The notes under the pieces were generated by a model. That model ran no database searches, was not told the origin of the DNA, and saw only the letters and a program-made list of their open reading frames with translations. A DNA stretch of 55,000 nt, from the NCBI RefSeq assembly GCF_000169155.1, contig NZ_AAWL01000009.1, forward strand, positions 1-55,000, read 5' to 3'. The position numbers and the translations under genes were made by a program. The first letter of the stretch is position 1. Each line of letters begins with the position of its first letter. This document shows positions 1,719 to 46,347 of this stretch, piece after piece. Source of the stretch: Thermosinus carboxydivorans Nor1 (GTDB lineage: Bacteria > Bacillota > Negativicutes > Sporomusales > Thermosinaceae).

Positions 1719-2075
1719 ATGAACAAGATCAATTGGGGGATTATTGCAACAGGCACGATTGCGAAAAAGTTTGCCGCCACGATTGCCCAGCTCGCTGACT
1801 GCGTGGAGATGAACGATAAGGCCTGCCAAGTGTTTGAAAAATACGGCGGTAGCCAGCTTATCGGTCAAAACGTGTTTACCTGCCATTCCGAGCCTTCCCG
1901 CAAGAAATTAGCGTATTTAATCACTAATCAGGAAACCAATTGCTATACCATTGAAAAAAACGGCATAAAAAAGCTCATCTATCAGACGCCGTGGTATAAA
2001 GACGGCCAATTCGGCGGTTTGGTCGAATTATCACTGGAAATTCCCTTCGAGATGCCGCACTTTGTACGGACATAA
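1719..2075 (+). pseudogene. Chimeric remnant: Gfo/Idh/MocA N-terminus joined to a small PAS-type protein
   Basis: The 118-residue frame starts well (AAAGGAAGG before the ATG) and ends at a good terminator, but its two halves look like different proteins. Residues 1 to about 27 (NWGIIATGTIAKKF) match the Rossmann nucleotide-binding start of Gfo/Idh/MocA oxidoreductases, which normally exceed 300 residues. From about residue 29 (EMNDKACQVFEKYGG) to the end (SLEIPFEMPHFVR) it resembles a small stand-alone PAS-like protein lacking its first 25-30 residues. The simplest reading is a deletion that fused the start of one gene to the rest of another. It may still be expressed, but neither parent activity is expected. 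The neighbour at 2103-2477 is also a deletion remnant. Confidence 0.6.
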
Positions 2076-2099
2076 CCCTTCCTTGCGGAAGGGTTTTTA
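2074..2099 (+). terminator. Rho-independent terminator after the chimeric frame
   Basis: AACCCTTCC and GGAAGGGTT form a 9-bp stem with a TTGC loop followed by a T run. It directly follows the stop codon of the chimeric frame. Confidence 0.85.
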
Positions 2100-2102
2100 T
2101 AT

Positions 2103-2477
2103 TTATCCTGCCTGGCCGCTAGCCGTCTGCGTTATTTGGTCACGCAAGAGGCGTTTTAAGATCTTGCCTGTCTGGTTTTTCGGCAGAGCATCAACGAGAA
2201 TGAAATCACGGGGGATCTTGTAACCGGCCAGGTTGGCTTGGAGGTATTCCCGAATTGCCCGTTTATCAAAGGTATAGCCTTCTGCCATGACAAGGTAAGC
2301 ACGTACGTTATCTTCAGCACAAACTGGCAGCACATCCCGGAAAGCTCCGGCGTTGCTGACAAGGTTCTTATGGGTCAGGACTGCCCCTTTAGGATTGCCT
2401 GTTGTTCCTGAAGTATAGATGATTGCACAGGGATGGTCGGCGAGTAAAGCCGGTGGTCGGCGGTGTAAGACTGTCAA
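2103..2477 (-). pseudogene. Internally deleted long-chain acyl-CoA synthetase (AMP-binding) remnant
   Basis: The 124-residue frame contains the AMP-binding P-loop motif ([21 protein letters not shown], residues about 19-39) and, only some 20 residues later, the C-terminal subdomain with GYKIPRDF and the lysine-containing [15 protein letters not shown]. In intact FadD-type enzymes these motifs are roughly 300 residues apart, so most of the large domain is missing, with the join close to [10 protein letters not shown]. The first 150 or more residues are also absent. Upstream on the same strand (about 2465-2560) another frame continues with coding-like sequence, which suggests an additional frameshift. 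No activity is expected. Confidence 0.8.
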
Positions 2478-2718
2478 TAGTTTCTTGAGTTAGGGCTTGT
2501 TTGAAATCGGGGATAACGGGGTGAGTTAATTCTTGCGCATAGCCGTAATTTTTTTGAATATGAGAAAATATACTATGCTTTACGCAATTTTTTTGTTTAC
2601 AGGTAAAATCCTCGAGTAGTTGCAGCCTATGAATTCTAGTTTATGGCCTACATACTTTACGCCTGGCGATGACATACTAAAACTAAAAAGCTTGTTTAGC
2701 TTGGGCGGAGGTAGTTCA

Positions 2719-2976
2719 ATGGAAAAGATTCGTTACTTTATTACCAAAAACTGCAAGAAGTGTGACGCTTGTTTGGAACATTGCCCGGAAGGCGCCGTGA
2801 GTGCCGGTAAAGACGGGAATATTGTCAATGACAATTGCACTGGCTGCGGTGAGTGTGAAGCGGTATGCCCTAATGGCGCCATTGTCAGGGAAACCGACCC
2901 CTACCGCACGATTAACCGGGAGATGGATTCTTTCTTTGGCGGCGGGGCATGGCCGCTGGGTGACCGAAAATGGTGA
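2719..2976 (+). CDS. Small 2[4Fe-4S] ferredoxin
   Basis: An 85-residue ferredoxin with two [4Fe-4S] motifs: CKKCDACLEHCP and CTGCGECEAVCP. The open frame extends to 2620, but the ATG at 2719 has a GGAGG at the right distance and begins a normal ferredoxin N-terminus (MEKIRYFITKNC). The protein ends with a short tail after the second cluster motif. It lies 36 bp upstream of the cstA-like transporter on the same strand and is probably cotranscribed with it. Its electron-transfer partner cannot be read from the window. Confidence 0.88.
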   Translation: MEKIRYFITKNCKKCDACLEHCPEGAVSAGKDGNIVNDNCTGCGECEAVCPNGAIVRETDPYRTINREMDSFFGGGAWPLGDRKW

Positions 2977-3012
2977 AGTAGGCGAAACTGTTGACGAAAG
3001 GGTGGTTTTAGT

Positions 3013-4773
3013 ATGAATGCGATATACCTTGTCTTAATTTCGGCTCTTGTTTTAACGCTGGCCTACCGTTACTACGGCTATTTCCTTGTTACCAAAGTCC
3101 TTGTCATCGATTCGCAAAAAACAACGCCAGCCCACCGGTTAAATGACGGGCGTGATTACATCCCAACCAACAAGTGGGTGGTTTTTGGCCACCATTTTGC
3201 CGCTATAGCCGGGGCAGGTCCGCTGGTAGGACCGGTGTTGGCCGCTCAGTTCGGCTATGTGCCGGGTATGCTATGGCTGCTTATCGGCGCTGTGCTGGCC
3301 GGCGCTGTCCACGATACTGTCGTCCTGTTCGCTTCGGTGCGTCACAATGGCCGGTCACTAGCCGAAATTGCCAAAGATGAGGTCAGTAAAGTGACAGGCG
3401 TAGCAACAAACTTTGCGGTTCTCCTAATTGTATTGCTGGCCATGGCCGGTCTGGCGATCGTCGTTGTTCATGCTCTGCATGACAATCCTTGGGGCACTTT
3501 TACCGTGGCATCGACTATCCCCAGTGCTATGCTTATCGGCATTTATATGCATATGCTGCGTCCCGGGAACATCCGCGAAGCTTCGATTATGGGCGTGATA
3601 TTGGTGCTGCTGGGAGTCATCGCCGGACCGTATATAAAAGCTTCTGCCATTGCCAATTGGTTTTTGTATGACGAAAAACAGCTTAAAATCTTGCTGCCAA
3701 CCTATGGTTTTCTTGCCGCCGTTTTACCGGTTTGGCTGCTGCTTGCCCCCCGTGACTATCTTAGTTCGTATATGAAAATAGGTACCATTGCCGCTTTGGC
3801 CCTGGGAATTATCATTGTGCGGCCCGAAATTCACGCCGAACCTTTTACCCGGTTTATAAACGGCGGTGGGCCCATTATCCCCGGTCCCGTATGGCCGTTT
3901 CTAATGATTACCATTGCCTGTGGCGCCATTTCGGGTTTCCATGCCCTCATTGGATCGGGGACAACGCCGAAACTGATTGACAACGAACGCGACATCCAGC
4001 TGGTAGGCTTTGGCGCCATGCTGACCGAGTCTTTCGTTGGGGTCATGGCCCTTATTGCTGCCACGGTACTGCTGCCTGGCGACTATTTTGCTATCAATAC
4101 GCCCAAAGCCGTTTTTGACAAATTGGCTCCTCTTGGTTATACCATGCAAAACCTGCCCGAACTTTCCGCGCTGGTCGGAGAAAACGTGGCTCATCGCCCC
4201 GGCGGCGCCGTTTCGCTGGCCGTTGGCATGGCCTATATCTTTTCCAGCATTCCCGGCCTGAAAGGGATAATGGCTTATTGGTACCAGTTTGCCATCATGT
4301 TTGAGGCCTTGTTCATCCTGACCACCATTGATGCTGGCACGCGTGTCGCCCGCTATATCGTTCAGGATATCCTCGGGCGGGTATATGAACCTTTTCGGAA
4401 AGTGAATTGGTGGCCGGGCGTGCTTATCACTAGCTTCCTTGTCTCTTTCGGATGGGGTTACTTGCTCTACGGCGGCAGTGTATCAACCATCTGGCCGATT
4501 TTCGGCGTGTCTAACCAACTTTTGGCTACCCTGGCGCTGGCCATTGGTACTACTATTATTCTCAAGCACCACAAGCGCTGGGATTATGCCATGATTACCC
4601 TCATTCCCACCATTGTGCTGTTTGTCACCACGGTAACAGCGGGGGTGCAGTCAGTTATTACCAATTATTGGCCTAATGGCATGATCCTTAATACCGTACT
4701 TATGGTGCTGATGATCATTGCTGTAATTGTGATTATTGTTGACTCCGCTTACCGGTGGACAAAAATTAAATAG
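3013..4773 (+). CDS. cstA: CstA family carbon starvation / pyruvate-peptide transporter
   Basis: A 586-residue polytopic membrane protein with the CstA family signature throughout, for example the N-terminal HRLNDGRDYIPTNKWVVFGHHFAAIAGAGPL region (quoted in parts: NDGRDY, GHHFAAIAGAGPLVGPV) and GSGTTPKLI near residue 315. CstA and BtsT proteins import pyruvate or peptides. AAAGGGTGG precedes the ATG at 3013. The upstream ferredoxin is probably in the same transcript. It ends at an intrinsic terminator that overlaps the stop codon. Substrate preference between pyruvate and peptides cannot be decided from sequence. Confidence 0.9.
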   Translation: MNAIYLVLISALVLTLAYRYYGYFLVTKVLVIDSQKTTPAHRLNDGRDYIPTNKWVVFGHHFAAIAGAGPLVGPVLAAQFGYVPGMLWLLIGAVLAGAVHDTVVLFASVRHNGRSLAEIAKDEVSKVTGVATNFAVLLIVLLAMAGLAIVVVHALHDNPWGTFTVASTIPSAMLIGIYMHMLRPGNIREASIMGVILVLLGVIAGPYIKASAIANWFLYDEKQLKILLPTYGFLAAVLPVWLLLAPRDYLSSYMKIGTIAALALGIIIVRPEIHAEPFTRFINGGGPIIPGPVWPFLMITIACGAISGFHALIGSGTTPKLIDNERDIQLVGFGAMLTESFVGVMALIAATVLLPGDYFAINTPKAVFDKLAPLGYTMQNLPELSALVGENVAHRPGGAVSLAVGMAYIFSSIPGLKGIMAYWYQFAIMFEALFILTTIDAGTRVARYIVQDILGRVYEPFRKVNWWPGVLITSFLVSFGWGYLLYGGSVSTIWPIFGVSNQLLATLALAIGTTIILKHHKRWDYAMITLIPTIVLFVTTVTAGVQSVITNYWPNGMILNTVLMVLMIIAVIVIIVDSAYRWTKIK

Positions 4774-4862: not shown

Positions 4863-5861
4863 TTGGAACAAGTCTTGCCCAATCTTTACCGGGTGGAAGT
4901 TCCTTTGCCGAACAATCCTTTGCGGGCGCTCAATTCTTATCTGGTCGTTGGACCGCGGCGCAGTCTGCTGATTGATACCGGGCTTAACCGGGCAGAGTGT
5001 CGGGAAGCTCTGCTTGGTGCACTGACCAATTTGGGAATCGATTTGGCGAGTCTTGACTTTTTCATTACCCATTTACACGCCGATCATTCCGGACTGATTG
5101 GTGAGCTTGCCGGCCAGGAGGCGACAATATATGCTTCGGCTGCCGATGCGGCGGTCATTAACTCCATGGGCATTTCGACCGAGCATTGGGATCGCATGGC
5201 TGCTTATGCGCGTCGCAGCGGTTTTCCTGACGAAATCCTGGCGGAGGCAATTCGCAAGCATCCAGGCGTGCGGTTTTCTACCCGCCGGCCGGTGCCGTTC
5301 ATAGCGGTACGCGAAGGTTATCGCCTGGTTATTGGCGACTATGAGTTTACGTGTATTACTACCCCCGGACATACACCTGGGCATGTATGTCTTTATGAAC
5401 CTAACCGGAAAATTCTTTTTTCCGGCGACCATATTCTCGACCATATTACGCCGAATATTTCGCTTTGGTCAGATGAAGAAAATGTATTGGCCGTATATCT
5501 TACCAGTCTGGAAAAAGTCCGCCGACTGCGGGTTGAGCTTGTACTGCCCGGTCATCGCCGTATATTTTCCGATTGCCGGCGGCGGATTGACGAGCTGGCG
5601 GAACACCACCGGCAGCGCCTTGTGGAAATCATAGGCATCCTGGAAGACAACGGTGCCCTCAGTGCTTACGAAGTGGCGGCACGGATGCGATGGGACTTGT
5701 CCTATTCTACATGGGAAGATTTCCCGCCGCCCCAGAAATGGTTTGCCGTTGGCGAGGCGATTGCTCACCTGCGGTACTTGGAGGAGCGGGGACAAATCCG
5801 CCGCGCTGGCTGCGATCCGGTGATAACCTTTGCTCATAGCGAGAACATCTGCCCAGGTTAA
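4863..5861 (+). CDS. Metallo-beta-lactamase-fold hydrolase with C-terminal winged helix
   Basis: A 332-residue protein with the metal-binding motif THLHADHSG (near residue 68), a second histidine in TTPGHTPGHVCLY, an aspartate in FSGDHILDH and a late histidine in VLPGHRR. This is the glyoxalase-II/LACTB2-like branch. Residues from about 250 form a helical winged-helix-like tail (AYEVAARMRWDLSYSTW, IAHLRYLEERGQI). The start is TTG, six bases after GGAGGGG. It stands alone between two terminators. The substrate is unknown; thioester or phosphodiester hydrolysis are both possible for this family. Confidence 0.85.
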   Translation: MEQVLPNLYRVEVPLPNNPLRALNSYLVVGPRRSLLIDTGLNRAECREALLGALTNLGIDLASLDFFITHLHADHSGLIGELAGQEATIYASAADAAVINSMGISTEHWDRMAAYARRSGFPDEILAEAIRKHPGVRFSTRRPVPFIAVREGYRLVIGDYEFTCITTPGHTPGHVCLYEPNRKILFSGDHILDHITPNISLWSDEENVLAVYLTSLEKVRRLRVELVLPGHRRIFSDCRRRIDELAEHHRQRLVEIIGILEDNGALSAYEVAARMRWDLSYSTWEDFPPPQKWFAVGEAIAHLRYLEERGQIRRAGCDPVITFAHSENICPG

Positions 5862-5868
5862 AACAAAC

Positions 5869-5898
5869 GAGCTGCCAGAGGTTGGCAGCTCTTAAATT
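5869..5898 (+). terminator. Hairpin after the MBL-fold gene
   Basis: GAGCTGCCA and TGGCAGCTC form a 9-bp stem followed by TTAAATTA. The T run is weak, but the position just after the stop codon and before a converging small gene supports a terminator. Confidence 0.65.
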
Positions 5899-5925
5899 AT
5901 ATCTGGAGACACCGGCCTACGCCAT

Positions 5926-6105
5926 TTACATCAAATCAAAGTGTTGGTTTTTCGTTCTTTTGGCGTTCAGATAGCTTTCAATCTGCTGCGTCAATAGTTT
6001 GTTATTCGCTTCGATCATCTCAGCGACGGCGGCGGTAATATCCTGCGATGCCTGCATTTTTTGCCCCGCAACCTGGAGGAGCTGTTCTTTGTTCATACCC
6101 AGCAT
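5926..6105 (-). CDS. Small helical protein of 59 residues, function unknown
   Basis: The minus strand encodes a 59-residue frame from an ATG at 6105 to a TAA at 5926, preceded by a very strong AAGGAGGTGA six bases upstream of the ATG. The product is rich in Gln, Ala, Met and Lys and looks like one or two amphipathic helices (residues about 5-45, with LLQVAGQKMQ and AEMIEANNKLLTQQ). I do not recognise the family. It is divergent from the TerC gene at 6264, with a Fur-like sequence between them. The strong ribosome binding site is the main argument that it is a gene. Confidence 0.65.
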   Translation of the reverse strand: MLGMNKEQLLQVAGQKMQASQDITAAVAEMIEANNKLLTQQIESYLNAKRTKNQHFDLM

Positions 6106-6192
6106 GGTTTCACCTCCTTGCTCCTGTTAGTATGTGCGCTTACCTGGCTGTTCCATCAGAATACCGTTTAACATTATTTAGCAGGTAAAGCA

Positions 6193-6210
6193 AATTATCA
6201 TTATCATTAC
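6193..6210. promoter_or_regulatory. Fur/MntR-like operator
   Basis: AATTATCATTATCATTAC contains overlapping TTATCA hexamers and, on the other strand, GTAATGATAATGATAATT. This resembles the hexamer array bound by Fur-family regulators. It lies between the divergent small gene and the TerC gene, about 55 bp before the latter. The metal specificity cannot be read. It is a match by eye only. Confidence 0.45.
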
Positions 6211-6263
6211 CTGGGGAAAACTAAAAACGTCGGTTTTGGTCTGGTGGACAGGAGGTTGAGGCG

Positions 6264-6941
6264 ATGATGGACGCGAGTTTCTGGGTTGGCGTGTTCAGCA
6301 TTACTACAATCAATTTATTGCTAAGCGGCGACAATGCTTTGGTGATTGCTCTGGCCAGTCGCAATCTGCCCGCCCGGCAGCAGCGCTCGGCCGTTTTTTG
6401 GGGAGGCGTCGGCGCAATTATTTTGCGGATTATCCTGACCTTAATTGCTATTTTTTTATTGCAAATACCATATTTGCAACTATTGGGCGGACTATTACTG
6501 CTGTGGGTAGCTATTAAGCTTATTAGCGACAAGAAAGAACCCTATGAAGAAATCGAGGCAGCAAACAGCTTATGGGCGGCGGTCAAGACCATCCTGGTTG
6601 CCGACTTAGTTATGAGTCTTGATAATGTATTGGCCATAGCCGGTATTGCCAAAGGCAACGTTCCACTGCTGGTTATTGGTCTTGGTATTAGTATTCCCAT
6701 CATTATCTGGGGCAGTAAAGCTATTATGTTATTGATGGAGCGCTGGTCGGTTATAATTTTACTTGGTGCGGCGTTTCTTGGCTGGACAGCCGGGGAAATG
6801 GTGTTGGCCGACAAGCAAGTTGAAATTTGGCTGGCGGCCTATTCTTGGGCTTACTGGGCGGTCCCAGCGCTGTTCGCCGCCGTCGTGGTTGTCATAGATC
6901 TAATCCAAAAACAACGGGACAAGGAAAGAGGTTCTGCTTAA
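6264..6941 (+). CDS. TerC family membrane protein (YjbE type), putative metal exporter
   Basis: A 225-residue inner-membrane protein with about seven hydrophobic segments and the two acidic TerC signatures: LLLSGDNALVIALASRNLP near the N-terminus and DLVMSLDNVLAIAGIAKGN in the middle. TerC-type proteins of this group are linked to manganese export and to metalation of secreted enzymes. GACAGGAGG precedes the start; either of two adjacent ATG codons could be used. It is a paralogue of the TerC at 15155-15850 but lacks the manganese riboswitch found there and instead has a Fur-like box upstream. It ends before a strong shared hairpin. Confidence 0.85.
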   Translation: MMDASFWVGVFSITTINLLLSGDNALVIALASRNLPARQQRSAVFWGGVGAIILRIILTLIAIFLLQIPYLQLLGGLLLLWVAIKLISDKKEPYEEIEAANSLWAAVKTILVADLVMSLDNVLAIAGIAKGNVPLLVIGLGISIPIIIWGSKAIMLLMERWSVIILLGAAFLGWTAGEMVLADKQVEIWLAAYSWAYWAVPALFAAVVVVIDLIQKQRDKERGSA

Positions 6942-6945
6942 AGCT

Positions 6946-6988
6946 ACACAAGGCCTAGCCTCCCGCTGACGGAGGTTAGGCCTTGTGT
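6946..6988. terminator. Hairpin between convergent terC and cysK
   Basis: Two 17-nt arms beginning ACACAAGGCC and ending GGCCTTGTGT pair with a single mismatch around a nine-base loop. It sits exactly between convergent genes and probably ends both transcripts, although T runs are short. Confidence 0.7.
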
Positions 6989-7956
6989 CACGATTTCACA
7001 AATAAATCGCTGCTCAAGTATTTCATGCCGCTATCGCAGAGGATAGTGACAATCGTTGTTCCGGGTGCACACTCTTTAGCCAGTTTGAGGGCAGCGGCCA
7101 CGTTACCGCCGGCCGTATACCCGACCAGTAATCCCTCTTCTGCTGCCAGGCGGCGGGCAGTTGCCACCGCTTCCTCGTCGGTGACGGTCAGGTAACCATC
7201 ACATAGATCTTGCCGCCATAATCCCGGAATCATGGCATAGCTCGAACCTTGCAGCTTGTGCTGGGGGCTAGTGACAGGCTTGCCGGCCAGTACCGGCGCC
7301 GACGCCGGCTCTACAGCGAGGCAGCGGATGGCCGGATTTTTTGCTTTCAGGGTGCTCGCCACGCCGACAAAAGTACCGGCCGTACCCACGACGTCTAAAA
7401 AAATGTCTATTTTTCCTTCAAGCTGATCCCAGATCTCTTGACCGGTGGTTGCGGCATGGGCGGCTACGTTGCTGGGGTTATGGAACTGATCCACAAAAAA
7501 GGCTTGTAATTCTTGGGCAATTTGGCGTCCGCGTTCTTCAACGAGTTTCAGGTCTTGTCCTGTTACCTGGCCGGGTTTTCCACCTGGCCCTTGCGGGACA
7601 AGTTCAACTTTGGCGCCCAGAGCCTGCAGGATCATCCGCCGTTCGGGACTGTTGCCTTCCGACATAACGGCAATGAAGCGATAGCCTTTGATGGCGCAGA
7701 CAATGGCAAGGCCAATGCCGGTATTACCGCTAGTTACTTCGACAACGGTGTCACCCGGTTTGAGTTTTCCCGCACGTTCGGCATCCTCAATCATTTGGCG
7801 GGCGATACGGTCTTTCATGCTTCCGCCTGGACTAAGGAATTCGGCCTTGGCGTAAATTTGCCCTGGTAAGTCGGCGTCCAGCCGGGCTAGGCGAATTAGG
7901 GGCGTGTTGCCGATGGCCTCGAGGGCAGACGAGCAAACTTTGGACCGGTTATTCAT
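6988..7956 (-). CDS. cysK: Cysteine synthase family PLP enzyme
   Basis: A 322-residue fold-type II PLP enzyme. The Schiff-base lysine lies in GGSMKDR (Lys48), the substrate loop in TSGNTGIGLA, and a glycine-rich phosphate loop in GTAGTF. The last, together with the C-terminal CDSGMKYLS, deviates from the usual GTGGT and PDTGERYLS, so it may be a cysteine synthase-like enzyme with altered acyl substrate. The frame is open to a GTG at 7974, but AGGAGG points to the ATG at 7956. O-acetylserine sulfhydrylase activity is the best guess; cystathionine beta-synthase-like use is the alternative. It stands alone and could link to the sulfur theme of the CstR-like repressor, but no operator of that type was seen at it. 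Confidence 0.82.
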   Translation of the reverse strand: MNNRSKVCSSALEAIGNTPLIRLARLDADLPGQIYAKAEFLSPGGSMKDRIARQMIEDAERAGKLKPGDTVVEVTSGNTGIGLAIVCAIKGYRFIAVMSEGNSPERRMILQALGAKVELVPQGPGGKPGQVTGQDLKLVEERGRQIAQELQAFFVDQFHNPSNVAAHAATTGQEIWDQLEGKIDIFLDVVGTAGTFVGVASTLKAKNPAIRCLAVEPASAPVLAGKPVTSPQHKLQGSSYAMIPGLWRQDLCDGYLTVTDEEAVATARRLAAEEGLLVGYTAGGNVAAALKLAKECAPGTTIVTILCDSGMKYLSSDLFVKS

Positions 7957-39940: not shown

Positions 39941-40007
39941 TTGACAGCGGCAGGTCACGGTGGTATGTTTTAATTAGGCATTAGCACTCTAATCGAACGA
40001 GTGCTAA
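39941..40007 (+). promoter_or_regulatory. Heat-shock promoter with perfect CIRCE operator
   Basis: TTGACA (39941-39946), 17 bp, TATGTT (39964-39969) form a vegetative sigma-factor promoter. The CIRCE element TTAGCACTC-N9-GAGTGCTAA is perfect at 39981-40007 and overlaps the expected start of transcription. HrcA, encoded by the first gene of the operon, binds CIRCE. The whole operon through dnaJ, including the chaperonin, should therefore be heat-inducible. Confidence 0.97.
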
Positions 40008-40025: not shown

Positions 40026-41051
40026 GTGGACGAGAGAAAGCGGAAAATTCTTCAGGCCATTATTGATGATTATATTTCTACCGCGGAGCCAGTGGGGTCG
40101 CGCACAATTGCTCGCAAATACAACTTGGGGGTTAGTCCGGCTACTATTCGCAATGAAATGGCCGATTTAGAATTATTAGGTTATCTCGAACAACCCCACA
40201 CTTCTGCCGGCCGCATACCTTCGGCCAAAGGCTATCGCTTTTATGTTGATTGTTTGCTGGCGCCGCAACCTCTTTCTGAAAAAGAAATTGCCCTGATTGA
40301 ACGCTGGTATCAAACCAAGGTGCGACGGCTGGAAGAGGTCTTTCAGGAAACGGCAAAAATTCTGTCGCGCATCACCCGCAACATTTCCCTGGTACTTGCG
40401 CCGCAGCTTTCACAATGTGCTTTCAAATATATGCAGTTTTTACCACTGGATGAACGGCGCGCCATCCTTGTTGTTGTTTCCGATACCGGTTTTGTAGAAA
40501 ATAAAATTATTGAAATCCCTGAGGGTATCGGTTTTCAAGAGCTGCAGAAAATTGCCGGCGCCATCAACGAGCGCCTGGCCGGTCTGGCTTTTGACCGGAT
40601 AAAATCTTCCCTTTTGCGGGAAATTAAGCACGATATTATACCCAACCGCGCTCTTTTTGAAACAGCGTTAGAATTTATTAAGGATGCGCTGGCGGTAGAA
40701 AGAAAAGACCGGGTGTATACGGGCGGAACGACCCAGGTTTTGGACCAGCCGGAATTCCGCGATGTGGATAAGGTCAGAGGTTTGCTGGCCATGCTGGAAG
40801 AAGAGCAGCTCCTGGTCGATATCCTGCATATGCGGGAAAGCGACGGGGTGGTTGTCACTATCGGCGGGGAAAACAAATATACCGGCATTCATGACTGCAG
40901 CATGGTGCAAGCTACCTATCGCGTCGACGGGCAGGTAGTTGGCACAGTGGCTGTTTTGGGTCCTACCCGCATGGAATATGGCCGAATAATGTCGGTGCTG
41001 GAATTCATGCACCGGCATTTGGGGCAAATCTTGAAAAAATACGGAATTTAG
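40026..41051 (+). CDS. hrcA: Heat-inducible transcription repressor HrcA
   Basis: A 341-residue repressor. The N-terminal winged helix contains VGSRTIARKYNLGVSPATIRNEMADLE (seen in parts) and the signature HTSAGRIPSAKGYRFYVD; the C-terminal GAF-like domain contains GGENKYTGIHDCSMVQATY. HrcA binds CIRCE, and in many bacteria it needs GroEL to stay folded. Here the neighbouring chaperonin is of group III, so which chaperonin tunes HrcA is an open question. Start is GTG after AGGAGGTG. Confidence 0.97.
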   Translation: MDERKRKILQAIIDDYISTAEPVGSRTIARKYNLGVSPATIRNEMADLELLGYLEQPHTSAGRIPSAKGYRFYVDCLLAPQPLSEKEIALIERWYQTKVRRLEEVFQETAKILSRITRNISLVLAPQLSQCAFKYMQFLPLDERRAILVVVSDTGFVENKIIEIPEGIGFQELQKIAGAINERLAGLAFDRIKSSLLREIKHDIIPNRALFETALEFIKDALAVERKDRVYTGGTTQVLDQPEFRDVDKVRGLLAMLEEEQLLVDILHMRESDGVVVTIGGENKYTGIHDCSMVQATYRVDGQVVGTVAVLGPTRMEYGRIMSVLEFMHRHLGQILKKYGI

Positions 41052-41070
41052 GGCGGCATAAATGCCGCCC
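41051..41070 (+). other. mRNA hairpin between hrcA and the chaperonin gene
   Basis: GGGCGGCAT and ATGCCGCCC form a perfect 9-bp stem with a two-base loop, starting at the last base of the hrcA stop codon. There is no T run, so it is unlikely to end transcription. It may be a processing or stability element that lets the chaperonin mRNA accumulate above hrcA. Confidence 0.65.
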
Positions 41071-41094: not shown

Positions 41095-42684
41095 ATGAAT
41101 CTTAAGCAAGCTGGCAGCGGCGCAGAAGTAGATGAACGTCTCGCGGCGCTGCTTACCAATGCCAACGCAGTACGCGCCATTACGGCGGCCGTTGAGGGAA
41201 CCATCGGCCCGAAAGGGCTCGATACCATGCTCGTGGACCGTTTTGGCGAAGTCATTATTACCAATGATGGAGTAACCATTTTAGATAAAATGGATGTAAA
41301 CCATCCTGCCGCCAAGATGCTGATTAATATTGCTAAAGCTCAGCAGGCCGAGGTGGGGGATGGGACAACGACGGCTACCATCATGGCCGGCGGGCTTGTT
41401 GCCGAAGGTGTCAACCAGGTATTGCGGGGTGTGCCGGTGGCCCGGGTCATTGAAGGGGTTCGTTATGGCGTCGCCCGAGCGATTGAGGAAATAAAGCGGC
41501 GAGGTCGCAAGGTAACCGATTTAAACGATCCTGTTTTACGGAATATCGCGATGATTGCCGGCCGGGAGCATGCGGATATTGCCGACCTGGTGGTAGCTGC
41601 GGCACGCCTTATTGGGGCGGAAAAATTATGCGAACCCAACTTTAAACTTTCGGATATTATCACGGCCGAAGAAGGCGCCGAAAATGAAGTATTCATGGGT
41701 GTCATTGTTGATAAAGAGCGCATGAACAAAGAAATGCCGGAAGAGCTTACGGATGTGAAGGTGCTGGTCATTGACGATGCGCTCGAGCCCGAGGAAATCG
41801 GCGATGAAGCTCTTAGCACCGAGTCAGGGTTTAAACGGTACATAGAGCTTCAAGATGAGTTCAAGCGCAATGTGCGTAAAATCGTTGAACTCGGGGTCAG
41901 GCTCGTCCTTGTTGACCGGGGCGTCCATGATGACGCCGACGAAATTCTGACCGATGCCGGCGTGATGGTAATCCAGCGCGTCCCAGCCAAAGATTTGCGG
42001 CGAGCGGCTGAGCACACCGGGGCGCGGATGATGAAACGCACCGGTCTGAAGAAAGACCTGGCTGATATTGAGAAATATCTTGGTTATGCTGAACGCGTCT
42101 ACGAAGACGAGAAGCTTGAACATGTCCGTATTCTTGGCGGCCAAGGCAAGCCGATGGCCACCATTTTAGTAGGGGCGGCCACGGAAGAAGTAGTTGGTGA
42201 GCGCGAGCGCATCGCGAAAGATGCCGCGTCCAGTGTTCAGGCGGCAATCAAGGGCGGCTACGTTCCCGGCGGCGGCGCCTGCGAAATCGCCATTGCTCGG
42301 GCGGTGGAAAAAGCGCGGGAGGAAATTAAAGGCATGGCTGCATATGGTGTGGACTGTGTAACCAACGCCTTGAAGCGGCCATTGGCCCAAATCGTCGAAA
42401 ATGCCGGGTTTAATCCGCTGGAAAAAGTCGAGGAGGTTATAGCAGCCCAGGCGGCAAAGGGCAGTGACTCGCTTGGCATTGATTGCGACACAGGCGAGGT
42501 AGCCGACATGCTAGAGCGGGGCGTCGTCGACCCAGTGCCTGTTAAGCTGCACGCTATTAAAGCGGCGGGCGAAGTGGCAGTGGCAATTTTGCGTATTGAT
42601 ACTATTATAAAAAAGAAAGAGGAAGGCGCTGCTGCCGGAAAAACCGCGGCCAGTAGCGATGCGGCCGGCATGCCGGACTTTTAA
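41095..42684 (+). CDS. Group III (archaeal/CCT-like) chaperonin in a bacterial dnaK operon
   Basis: A 529-residue chaperonin of the thermosome/TRiC type, not GroEL. Nucleotide-binding motifs are GPKGLDTMLVD (residues 38-48), TNDGVTIL (56-63), GDGTTT (88-93) and the late VPGGGACEIAIA. The sequence keeps the group II features IDDALEP-type apical region and LVDRGVHDDADEIL and lacks GroEL's C-terminal GGM repeats, ending AAGMPDF. No groES-like gene is adjacent, as expected for chaperonins with a built-in lid. It lies between hrcA and grpE. Such bacterial group III chaperonins have been described from Carboxydothermus hydrogenoformans, also next to dnaK genes. Conserved tract length and motifs look intact. 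Confidence 0.95.
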   Translation: MNLKQAGSGAEVDERLAALLTNANAVRAITAAVEGTIGPKGLDTMLVDRFGEVIITNDGVTILDKMDVNHPAAKMLINIAKAQQAEVGDGTTTATIMAGGLVAEGVNQVLRGVPVARVIEGVRYGVARAIEEIKRRGRKVTDLNDPVLRNIAMIAGREHADIADLVVAAARLIGAEKLCEPNFKLSDIITAEEGAENEVFMGVIVDKERMNKEMPEELTDVKVLVIDDALEPEEIGDEALSTESGFKRYIELQDEFKRNVRKIVELGVRLVLVDRGVHDDADEILTDAGVMVIQRVPAKDLRRAAEHTGARMMKRTGLKKDLADIEKYLGYAERVYEDEKLEHVRILGGQGKPMATILVGAATEEVVGERERIAKDAASSVQAAIKGGYVPGGGACEIAIARAVEKAREEIKGMAAYGVDCVTNALKRPLAQIVENAGFNPLEKVEEVIAAQAAKGSDSLGIDCDTGEVADMLERGVVDPVPVKLHAIKAAGEVAVAILRIDTIIKKKEEGAAAGKTAASSDAAGMPDF

Positions 42685-42701: not shown

Positions 42702-43307
42702 GTGAGTATGGGCGAAAAGCTCGAGGAGACGATCAACCAGGCGGGGGCCGAACCCCAGGCGCAAATGGCGGCGGGGGCAGACGCAATAGAAGAGAAAGAC
42801 CAGGAAGAGATAAAAGACCAAGAGGTCTGCTTCCCACAAGAAGACGTGGAGCGGCTTCTGGCCTCTATCGCCGAGAAAAACCGCCTGCACGAAGAAATGA
42901 TGGAGCGGCTCAAGCGGCTGCAAGCCGACTTTGATAACTTCCGCCGCCGCACCCGTCAGGAAAAAGACGATTTATCCAAAGTGGTAACCGAAGGCATCGT
43001 ACTGCAACTCTTGCCTGTTCTGGATAACTTTGAGCGGGCGCTCAGCGCGGCGACGGAAGATGCGGCAGCCCTCCGTGCCGGAGTGGAAATGATTTACCGC
43101 CAGTTTACCCAAGCCTTGGAAAAAATGGGAGTACAGCCGATTGAAGCAGCGGGCGCCGTTTTTGATCCTCAGTACCATGAGGCGGTCATACGGGTCGAAG
43201 ACCCTGATCGGCCGGATAATACGGTGGTCGAGGTGCTGCAAAAAGGCTATATGGTTCATGGTAAAGTCATTCGTCCTAGCATGGTCAAAGTAGTTAGCAA
43301 TTCCTAA
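42702..43307 (+). CDS. grpE: Nucleotide exchange factor GrpE
   Basis: A 201-residue GrpE. A charged, low-complexity N-terminus (residues 1-50) leads into a long coiled coil (AEKNRLHEEMMERLKRLQADFDNFRRRTRQE seen in parts) and the C-terminal beta domain with AVFDPQYHEAV and VVEVLQKGYMVHGKVIRPSMVKV. It releases ADP from DnaK and acts as a temperature sensor. Start is GTG at 42702 after GAGGTGA; an ATG two codons later is also possible. It lies 17 bp after the chaperonin. Confidence 0.96.
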   Translation: MSMGEKLEETINQAGAEPQAQMAAGADAIEEKDQEEIKDQEVCFPQEDVERLLASIAEKNRLHEEMMERLKRLQADFDNFRRRTRQEKDDLSKVVTEGIVLQLLPVLDNFERALSAATEDAAALRAGVEMIYRQFTQALEKMGVQPIEAAGAVFDPQYHEAVIRVEDPDRPDNTVVEVLQKGYMVHGKVIRPSMVKVVSNS

Positions 43308-43327: not shown

Positions 43328-45181
43328 ATGGCAAAAGTAATCGGTATAGATTTAGGGACTACTAACTCCGTCGTAGCGGTTATGGAAGGCGGCGAGCCGG
43401 TTGTTATTCCTAATGCCGAAGGCAGCCGTTTGACTCCTTCTGTCGTCGGTTTTTCTAAAACAGGCGAGCGGCTGGTCGGTCAACTGGCCAAGCGTCAGGC
43501 TGTTTCCAATCCGGAGCGCACCGTTATTTCCATAAAGCGGCATATGGGTACGAACCACAAAGTGCGTATTGATGAAAAAGAATATACGCCTCAAGAAATT
43601 TCAGCCATGATTTTGCAAAAGCTCAAGCAAGACGCTGAGGCTTACCTCGGGGAAAAGGTAACCAAAGCGGTCATCACCGTACCGGCCTATTTTACTGATG
43701 CCCAGCGCCAAGCTACCAAGGATGCCGGCACTATCGCCGGACTGGAAGTGCTGCGCATTATCAACGAGCCTACGGCGGCCGCCTTGGCGTATGGTCTTGA
43801 CAAAGGTGAAGACCATACCATCCTGGTCTTCGACTTGGGCGGCGGTACTTTCGACGTGTCTATTCTGGAACTGGGTGACGGCGTTTTTGAAGTTAAGGCG
43901 ACCAGCGGCAATAACCGTCTGGGCGGCGACGACTTTGACGAGCGTATTATGCAGTGGCTGATTGCTGAATTTAAGAAAGAGCATGGCATTGATCTTTCGG
44001 CAGACCGCATGGCCATGCAGCGCCTCAAAGAAGCGGCGGAAAAAGCCAAGATTGAGTTGTCCGGCGTATTAACCACCAATATCAATTTGCCGTTTATCAC
44101 CGCCGATGCCAGTGGGCCGAAACACCTGGACGTCACTCTTACCAGAGCCAAGTTTGAAGAGCTGACGGCGGACCTGGTTGAAGCCACAATGGGTCCTACC
44201 CGCCAGGCTCTGAGCGACGCGGGATTGACGCCCAAAGATATCGACAAGGTTATTTTGGTCGGCGGTTCGACCCGGATTCCGGCCGTTCAGGAAGCGATTA
44301 AGAAGTTCCTGGGCAAAGAACCCTACCGCGGCGTGAATCCCGATGAGTGTGTGGCCATCGGCGCAGCCATTCAGGCCGGCGTCCTGGTCGGTGAAGTCAA
44401 GGATGTACTCCTTCTTGACGTAACGCCTCTATCCTTGGGCATTGAGACGCTAGGCGGCGTATTCACGAAGATTATTGAACGCAATACGACCATTCCTACT
44501 TCCAAGAGCCAGATTTTTTCCACGGCTGCCGATAATCAGTCCTCTGTTGAGATTCATGTCCTGCAGGGCGAACGGGAAATGGCAGCTTATAACAAGACGC
44601 TCGGCCGGTTTGAGCTCTCGGGAATTCCGCCGGCGCCGCGCGGTGTTCCTCGCATTGAAGTTACCTTTGACATTGATGCCAACGGTATTGTCCATGTGTC
44701 GGCCAAAGACCTTGGTACCGGCAAGGAGCAAAAGATTACCATCACTTCTTCCAGTGGCCTGAGCAAGGAAGAAATCGAGCGGATGGTCAAAGAAGCAGAA
44801 GCCCATGCCAGCGAAGACAAAAAGCGCCGCGAGGAGGCCGAAATACGCAATAACGCCGACTCGCTCGTGTACCAGGCCGAAAAGACCATCAAGGAGATGG
44901 GGGACAAGGCCGATAAAGCGCTGGTGGAAAAGGTGCAAAAAGGCATCGATAAATTAAAAGAATCTCTGAAGGGCAATGATATTGCGAAGATCAAGGCCGA
45001 TACCGAAGAACTTACCAAACCGCTGTATGAACTTACGGCCGCCGTGTATAACCAAGCGGGCGGTCAGGGCACGCCGGGCTCTCAAGGATTTGGTCCGGGC
45101 GCGGCTGGCGCGTCAGCACCAAATGACGATAAGGTAGTAGACGCTGAGTACAAGGTAGTAGACGAAGAGAACAAGAAGTAG
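43328..45181 (+). CDS. dnaK: Chaperone DnaK (Hsp70)
   Basis: A 617-residue Hsp70 with an actin-like ATPase domain ([32 protein letters not shown] and [11 protein letters not shown]), an interdomain linker ([15 protein letters not shown]), the peptide-binding domain to about residue 500 and a helical lid ending [13 protein letters not shown]. The long insert typical of Gram-negative DnaK is shortened, as in Firmicutes. TAAGGAGG precedes the ATG. Third chaperone gene of the CIRCE operon. Confidence 0.98.
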
Positions 45182-45207: not shown

Positions 45208-46347
45208 GTGAGCAAAAGAGATTATTATGAAGTGTTAGGCGTGCCCAGGACGGCGACCGAGGAAGAGATCAAGAAGGCCTTTCGCAAGCTGGCACGGAAA
45301 TACCATCCTGATGTCAACCGTGATAACCCTAAAGAGGCAGAGGAGAAATTCAAAGAAATAAACGAAGCCTATGAAGTTTTGTCCGACCCCGAGCGGCGGG
45401 CGCAGTATGACCAGTTCGGCCATGCGGCCTTTGACCCCGGCCAAGGCGCCGGGGCAGGCGGCTTTGGCGGTTTTGGCGGATTTGGCGCCGGCGGGTTTAG
45501 CGATATTTTCGATATGTTTTTCGGTCAGACCGGTTTCGGCGCCCGTCATGCCGGCCCGGAAAAAGGCGCCGATTTGCGTTACGACTTGGAGATTGCTTTC
45601 GAAGAAGCCGCTTTTGGCGTGGAGAAAGAAATTCAGGTGCCGCGTACCGAAGAATGTCCCGCTTGCCATGGCTCAGGCGCCGCCCCGGGAACCCATCCCG
45701 AGACATGCCCGCAGTGCCGCGGAACGGGACAGCAGCAGATCGTTCAAAACACGCCGTTTGGGCGCATGGTTAACGTGAAGACCTGTACCCGCTGTCGCGG
45801 CGAGGGCAAGATAGTGCGCACGCCCTGCAAAGAGTGTCAGGGACGTGGCAGAGTCCGCAACAAGCGTACTATAAAGATAAAAATCCCTGCCGGTGTTGAC
45901 AGTGGGTCCCGCCTCCGTGTTGCTTATGAAGGCGAGGCCGGTATACGCGGCGGGCCGCCTGGCGATTTGTATGTTTATATTTTTGTAAAACCGCACAAAC
46001 TGTTTACACGTGAAGGCAGCGATGTCATTTGCGAAGTGCCAATAAGTTTTGTGCAGGCTGCCTTAGGCGACGAAATCGAAGTGCCCACCCTGGACGGGAA
46101 AGTCAGTCTTAAGATTCCCGAAGGTACCCAGTCCGGTACGACTTTCCGTCTCAAGGACAAAGGCATTCCGCACCTTAGAGGCCATGGCCGCGGCGATCAG
46201 CATGTGCGGATCAAAGTGGTTACTCCCAAGAACCTGACCGAACGTCAGCGCGAGCTTTTGAAGGAGTTTGCCCGTGTGAGCGGTGAAAATATTAATCCGG
46301 AGCAAAAGAGTTTTTTTAAAAAGGTCAAAGATTTTTTGGGATCGTAA
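45208..46347 (+). CDS. dnaJ: Chaperone DnaJ (Hsp40)
   Basis: A 379-residue type I DnaJ. The J domain has the HPD motif (ARKYHPDVN, residues about 29-37), followed by a glycine/phenylalanine stretch (residues about 75-105) and four zinc-finger repeats [24 protein letters not shown] and CKECQGRG, then the substrate-binding beta domains. It delivers clients to DnaK and stimulates its ATPase. Start is GTG at 45208 with a weak GGGATGGTGA upstream. It lies 26 bp after dnaK. Confidence 0.98.

Follow-up and report, generated by a model that had tools for sequence, protein, structure and literature searches.

Does a lid-bearing, thermosome-like chaperonin encoded between hrcA and grpE serve the Hsp70 system or the HrcA repressor, and how did its gene come to lie there in a bacterium? 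The question arises from an ORF of Thermosinus carboxydivorans, a Negativicute of the Sporomusaceae, in the 55,000 nt of genomic DNA that we analysed (hereafter the window). We consider it highly probable (roughly 0.88) that this ORF specifies a Group III chaperonin cage that is controlled by HrcA and CIRCE together with hrcA-grpE-dnaK-dnaJ, and that refolds heat-damaged proteins.

Identity and descent of the chaperonin

Judged from its sequence and a predicted model, the ORF, which starts with ATG and keeps an intact frame, encodes a Group III chaperonin, a typical member of this known bacterial family. Its top match by sequence among solved structures was 9rwq, a resurrected ancestor (7.3e-215; 345 of 516 columns identical, 66.9%). 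Despite the title of that entry, ACII, we take it as the Group III ancestor because this identity fits the 67% in a 2025 table of PMC12696368, which lists T. carboxydivorans WP_007289467.1 as the present-day protein closest to the resurrected Group III ancestor; the window gene is probably the one for WP_007289467.1. The C. hydrogenoformans chaperonin (5x9u) matched at 9.2e-146, and the first natural archaeal thermosome only at 8.8e-73. Scores fell below the NCBIfam cut-offs for the thermosome (320.8 bits, cut-off 671.1), its beta subunit (318.3 bits, cut-off 400) and its alpha subunit (315 bits, cut-off 450), and the match to the GroEL model TIGR02348 was weak (156.8 bits, cut-off 582.1). The predicted model (mean pLDDT 86.4) first retrieved the closed and open Group III crystals, 5x9v and 5x9u (TM 0.88/0.94, 48% identity), with Group II next (3kfb; 0.81/0.84, 33% identity).

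Diagnostic residues were compared in an alignment of 21 Group III, 7 Group II and 4 Group I rows, with numbering after the C. hydrogenoformans chaperonin (Ch) of PMC5635000. The catalytic Asp56 and Asp373 are kept in the window as D58 and D376, and Asp87, Thr89 and Thr91 of the P-loop correspond to D89, T91 and T93. The Group III arginine that contacts the gamma-phosphate, Ch Arg155, is R157 and occurs in 21/21 Group III, 0/7 Group II and 0/4 Group I rows. Group II proteins have a nucleotide-sensing loop of six residues, present in the seven thermosome rows; the window chaperonin has a gap there, as do the GroEL rows. The lid segment is present in the window chaperonin and is a gap in the GroEL rows; its hydrophobic residues, Ch L237, F243, Y246 and F253, appear as L240, F246, Y249 and F256. 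The available portion of PMC5635000 calls these four residues strictly conserved in Group III. In our alignment they are kept in 19, 18, 19 and 21 of the 21 Group III rows, respectively, and are therefore not strictly conserved. Structures, residues and fold agree with the Group III identity of the original prediction.

In a tree of the three groups, Group I and Group II each formed a clade (100/100), and GroEL was split from the rest at 100/100. Group III made up one side of a branch with support of 74/68, with C. hydrogenoformans and one divergent locus (L105) on long branches and a long-branch warning from the program. The window chaperonin is placed apart from GroEL, so that the placement named as refuting the original prediction was not seen; its separation from archaeal thermosomes, through the Group III branch, has only the 74/68 support. 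A diverged GroEL paralogue would belong to the same Cpn60 superfamily and might give a weak TIGR02348 match, but the lid segment, the order of best matches (Group III, then Group II), the tree split and the separate groEL in the genome leave this reading with next to no probability. Group III as a whole may stem from an ancient archaeal transfer or be a relic of LUCA.

Had this lineage recently acquired a thermosome gene from an archaeon, a chaperonin closer to thermosomes than to GroEL would be expected, but the pedigree of the window chaperonin points elsewhere. The chaperonin tree comprised 69 loci and five outside rows (quick search, SH-aLRT), omitting L063, L064, L066, L075 and L105 as partial, broken or too divergent. 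The window chaperonin lies on a short branch inside a clade of 30 Negativicutes rows (SH-aLRT 99), and its nearest named relatives are Sporomusaceae, in line with the Negativicute host that had been proposed. It is about 28–34% identical to thermosomes versus 60–84% to 17 other bacterial rows. Where all six genes were complete (43 loci), tree distances correlated with those of the chaperonin at 0.95 for DnaJ, 0.93 for DnaK, 0.89 for HemW, 0.86 for HrcA and 0.69 for LepA, and conflicts with supported splits of the chaperonin tree numbered 0, 0, 0, 1 and 4, respectively. Since the trees agree with those of DnaJ, DnaK and HemW, the chaperonin was inherited with the operon and was not recently imported; we regard a recent archaeal transfer as very improbable. 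Beside the operon of locus L014, LepA (1776-3548) has an identity of only 60% and falls among Thermosediminibacteraceae-type rows; it looks foreign, whether as a foreign copy or through misassembly.

The original prediction took such chaperonins to be known from a few bacteria, and their presence in a Negativicute to be out of the ordinary. Neither view was supported. The available text of PMC5635000 counts 195 Group III sequences by 2017, and our scan, of contigs from one genome per species, yielded 73 loci, 72 of them Group III; the other, L074, was rejected as a GroEL-like 26% match. The 72 scan loci, the window and L105 make up the 74-locus set used below. Within the Negativicutes, the chaperonin occurs in at least 52 of 250 genomes and 29 of 86 genera (completeness >=85, drawn from a larger group; 178 genomes without a match are outside the rows listed), and 52 is a lower bound because G095, scored negative, has the chaperonin at a contig end (L190). 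Among the rows listed for the order of T. carboxydivorans (its own genome, the same genus and the same order), 24 of 25 bear it. The one row without it, G157, was rejected as a loss, having no HrcA match either and pointing to a missing region. A second genome of the genus has a chaperonin 98% identical to that of the window.

Twelve of the 198 chaperonin-negative genomes were examined for hrcA and 11 were positive. Ten of these 11 loci run hrcA-grpE-dnaK with nothing between, and the eleventh is the G095 contig end with the chaperonin; one chaperonin-less hrcA-grpE-dnaK locus, L195, has no CIRCE within two mismatches. Class members in which grpE follows hrcA are ready controls for the window chaperonin.

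Several sequences stood apart. The chaperonin of L105 (G078; 5809-7344, minus strand) has 46–47% identity and lies in an operon that is otherwise ordinary for Negativicutes, in a genome of 1.7 Mb, a divergence that might reflect either fast evolution or relaxed function. One in-frame stop (TAG or TAA) interrupts the chaperonin match in G094, G104, G124 and G134, perhaps giving a shorter tail. An apparent insertion in the chaperonin of L064 (ORF of 656 aa) proved to be a run of N, that is, a scaffold gap and no insert. Plasmid carriage was also rejected: 1346 plasmid records match, all below 60% identity, and the annotated rows among 70 of these 1346 matches are thermosome, TCP-1/cpn60 or GroEL, the others being unannotated.

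The operon, its control and its gene partners

The predicted order was borne out by family models and an exact CIRCE: promoter, CIRCE, hrcA, the chaperonin gene (cpn), grpE, dnaK and dnaJ follow each other on one strand with short gaps (Table 1).

Table 1. Features of the window operon and small ORFs at related loci
Feature	Position	Strand	Evidence or remark
Sigma-70-like promoter, TTGACA-17-TATGTT	39941..39969	+	10/12 consensus matches; 11 nt before CIRCE
CIRCE operator, predicted HrcA site	39981..40007	+	Exact, no mismatch
hrcA, heat-inducible repressor	40026..41051	+	TIGR00331, 346.6 bits (cut-off 197.2)
Stem-loop between hrcA and cpn	41051..41070	+	8 bp, G+C-rich, no T-run; z -3.0
Group III chaperonin (cpn)	41095..42684	+	529 aa; sequence, alignment, trees, predicted model
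grpE	42702..43307	+	NF010738, 168.1 bits (cut-off 137)
dnaK	43328..45181	+	TIGR02350, 978.6 bits (cut-off 822.55)
dnaJ	45208..46347	+	TIGR02349, 493 bits (cut-off 377.2)
IIB-like ORF	L037:7620-7955		
IIB-like ORF	L045:7589-7924		
IIB-like ORF	L058:7571-7849		
IIB-like ORF	L066:7592-7888		
IIB-like ORF	L028:1687-1947		

CIRCE occurs once in the window, against a mean of 0 in 100 shuffles of it. The promoter scan returned two promoter-like sites versus 4.9 expected from shuffles and, because this number is no higher than in shuffles, the promoter-like site counts by its position only. In Bacillus subtilis, a processing site has been described between the repressor and chaperone genes. Stems of at least 7 pairs occur in 27 of 61 hrcA/cpn gaps versus 1 of 16 cpn/grpE gaps (length-filtered), with z below -2 in just 13 of the 61, and the stem-loop of the window might conceivably act as an mRNA processing or stability element.

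The hrcA gene of this operon is the only HrcA match in the T. carboxydivorans genome, which has four exact CIRCE sites, that of the operon included. Another precedes groES-groEL on a different contig; GroEL, whose relation to the Group III chaperonin the original prediction had raised, is thus present and coexists with it. Of the remaining two sites, one (G000:C16:35460-35486, L079) precedes a gene resembling GH130 phosphorylases and the other (G000:C2:58693-58719, L077) a gene for an AraC-type response regulator, and the sister genome G074 keeps both (L137, L138). Instead of these positions, 12 relatives have an extra CIRCE before an ORF that we take to be htpG-like from its presumed start, and G117 has one before another dnaK-like gene (L131, L153).

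Coexistence with GroEL is general among the 72 bearer genomes searched: GroEL passes the cut-off in 67, and G001 has it in two pieces. Neither groEL nor groES was found in the other four (G014, G050, G066 and G073), all of them metagenome assemblies; G014 apparently equals the 87% complete G090, with equal contig positions. We rejected these four candidates for a GroEL-less bearer, as incomplete assemblies explain them well enough, and no bearer genome is convincingly without GroEL.

More than 1.1 kb of upstream sequence is available for 68 of the 74 loci, and hrcA adjoins the chaperonin in 68/68: it is the next gene, no more than 400 nt upstream, in 66 loci, as it is in L064 (N-run) and L066 (broken frame) after merging pieces. 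CIRCE lies at most 400 nt ahead of hrcA in these same 68/68 loci, being exact in 65. As for the six loci with shorter upstream sequence, the end of hrcA is visible in L026 and L041, there is too little in L028, L063 and L075, and L029, with no hrcA match in 572 nt, is a possible exception. Downstream, grpE-dnaK follows in 63 of the 74 loci (62 strictly, plus L075). The other 11 (L028, L035, L037, L040, L045, L053, L058, L063, L066, L067 and L071) lack grpE and dnaK and have dnaJ after the chaperonin, preceded in six of them by a small or unrelated ORF; in L066 only the start of dnaJ is readable, at the contig end. Nine of these 11 loci have hrcA upstream, and the other two have too little upstream sequence.

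In Bacillus, GroEL is proposed to tune HrcA activity. The Group III chaperonin could chiefly be a partner of HrcA, folding or tuning it, with occupancy of the cage by damaged proteins setting repressor activity; that hrcA is its most constant neighbour, including in nine of the 11 dnaK-less loci, fits this reading. However, HrcA copes without the chaperonin in the ten Negativicutes loci that run hrcA-grpE-dnaK, GroEL is over the cut-off in 67 of 72 bearers and split in one more, and L029 shows no hrcA in its upstream stretch. Adjacency may also only mirror CIRCE control. We therefore find a dedicated HrcA partner rather unlikely, and keep to a cage that refolds heat-damaged proteins under HrcA control.

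Gene order across the set suggests that the steadiest partner of the chaperonin is hrcA with its CIRCE, rather than the Hsp70 genes. The direct link to the Hsp70 system claimed in the original prediction looks weaker in this light: grpE-dnaK follows the chaperonin in 63 of the 74 loci, the window among them, and 11 keep dnaJ (with hrcA in nine) without dnaK. According to the available text of PMC5635000, all Group III chaperonins but one lie in an Hsp70 operon; this may survive if dnaJ alone counts, and otherwise 11 of 74 loci misfit. The rule that Group III belongs to the Hsp70 operon needs rewording, to give hrcA with CIRCE as the more constant partner.

Loci without dnaK and their small ORFs

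DnaK is encoded elsewhere in all 11 genomes of the dnaK-less loci (in two pieces in G007). No CIRCE was found within three mismatches in 12 stretches around the displaced dnaK; grpE is present in six of these, and a DnaJ-like gene in three. Three of the 12 stretches hold an HspR-like ORF beside dnaK (L094:5270-5773, L100:3240-3650 and L104:4121-4486), with HspR as the best family at 80–87 bits (cut-off 105). An exact HAIR motif, in the sequence that we presume to be the HspR site, occurs in 0/12 stretches. HspR control of the displaced dnaK is put forward as a suggestion only, and two repressor circuits would perhaps split the chaperone set in genomes with the HspR-like gene.

In the chaperonin tree, nine of the 11 dnaK-less loci form one clade (96) with L041, which has grpE-dnaK; two changes are needed. 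L053 has a nucleotidyltransferase-domain ORF (PF01909; L053:5099-5935) between the chaperonin and dnaJ.

Five of the 11 dnaK-less loci contain a small ORF between cpn and dnaJ, of 87–112 aa as cut (Table 1). In L066, its ATG overlaps the stop codon of the chaperonin, whose own frame is broken there. In Pfam, four of the five have HSP70 as their only or best match, at positions 225–304 of 599, those of L037 and L066 above the cut-off and those of L045 and L058 below it; the ORF of L028 has no Pfam match, aligns with the other four and finds DnaK by BLAST. Nine alignment columns are invariant among all five. Among the best 50 rows of a Foldseek search, the model of the L037 ORF (pLDDT 77) superposed some 80 residues on nucleotide-binding domains of Hsp70 at 1.2–2.2 Å, for example E. 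coli DnaK 229–310. In the accessible part of PMC2940730, DnaK subdomain IIB comprises residues 229–306, and each of the four exchange factors examined there, among them GrpE, contacts it. From the sequence and model matches to Hsp70 at about 229–310, the small ORF is therefore a free-standing subdomain IIB.

Five diverged loci have kept the ORF intact, which points to a gene in use more than to a decaying one; it may also be a relic. Its mean scores against operon-type and other DnaK (54.2 and 53.3) make the source type indistinguishable. An IIB profile scan matched 392 of 398 genomes, the rows listed being mostly long DnaK frames, and among them only G002 had a frame shorter than 200 aa. A literature search on stand-alone Hsp70 subdomain IIB found only structure work on human Hsp70.

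As a tentative scenario, possible rather than probable, the chaperonin of one Bacillota clade would have left the Hsp70 genes and stayed with CIRCE-hrcA and dnaJ, while a IIB mini-protein was kept at the old place of dnaK, where it might dock the chaperonin to Hsp70 as an adaptor or act as a GrpE decoy; in organisms like that of the window, the same face of full DnaK could dock the chaperonin. Such a mini-protein would bear the contact face of DnaK for GrpE and the other exchange factors. Encoded next to a chaperonin, a stand-alone subdomain of Hsp70 would offer a way into the cross-talk between Hsp70 and lid-bearing chaperonins.

Proposed function and comparison with known systems

By analogy with C. 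hydrogenoformans, the window chaperonin would assemble as a homo-oligomer, a double ring with 2 x 8 subunits and a built-in lid, independent of GroES. Transcription of its gene would start at the promoter upstream of hrcA, under the control of CIRCE. In cells at normal temperature, HrcA would be active, binding and repressing both the operon and groES-groEL. Upon heat, HrcA would lose activity, hrcA, cpn, grpE, dnaK and dnaJ would rise jointly, groES-groEL would respond through its own CIRCE, and the induced cage would refold heat-damaged proteins. Prefoldin PF01920, one of the two prefoldin families, had no match in the genome, the control being positive in four archaea. Because it was not found, clients would most probably reach the cage by themselves or through DnaK/DnaJ; the chaperonin loci without dnaK do not favour hand-over from DnaK.

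The family, its placement in the dnaK operon and joint control with GroEL by HrcA are in print in the available portions of PMC5635000, PMC5220055, PMC5904260 and PMC12696368, and the window chaperonin is an already known case; our literature search joining chaperonin, Negativicutes and thermosome found no paper. What is new is the hrcA-centred gene order and, in relatives, the putative IIB mini-protein, neither of which was found in the literature searched. The window offers a clean, intact, short-branch Group III case beside an operator of the kind that GroEL also has, in a group that regularly inherits the gene.

The C. hydrogenoformans Group III chaperonin (5x9u, 5x9v), as described in the available text of PMC5635000, resembles that of the window in its fold, in the arginine that replaces the sensing loop, in the lid and catalytic residues, and in its published placement in the dnaK operon; it differs in sequence (48% identity) and has a long branch, whereas that of the window is short. 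The archaeal Group II thermosome shares the built-in lid and overall fold, but is only about 28–34% identical, has the sensing loop and forms its own clade (100/100). The HrcA-CIRCE (class I) regulon of Bacillota likewise has CIRCE sites in front of both the hrcA operon and groESL; in T. carboxydivorans, it differs in having a chaperonin gene between hrcA and grpE, and two more CIRCE sites, before the GH130 and AraC-type regulator genes.
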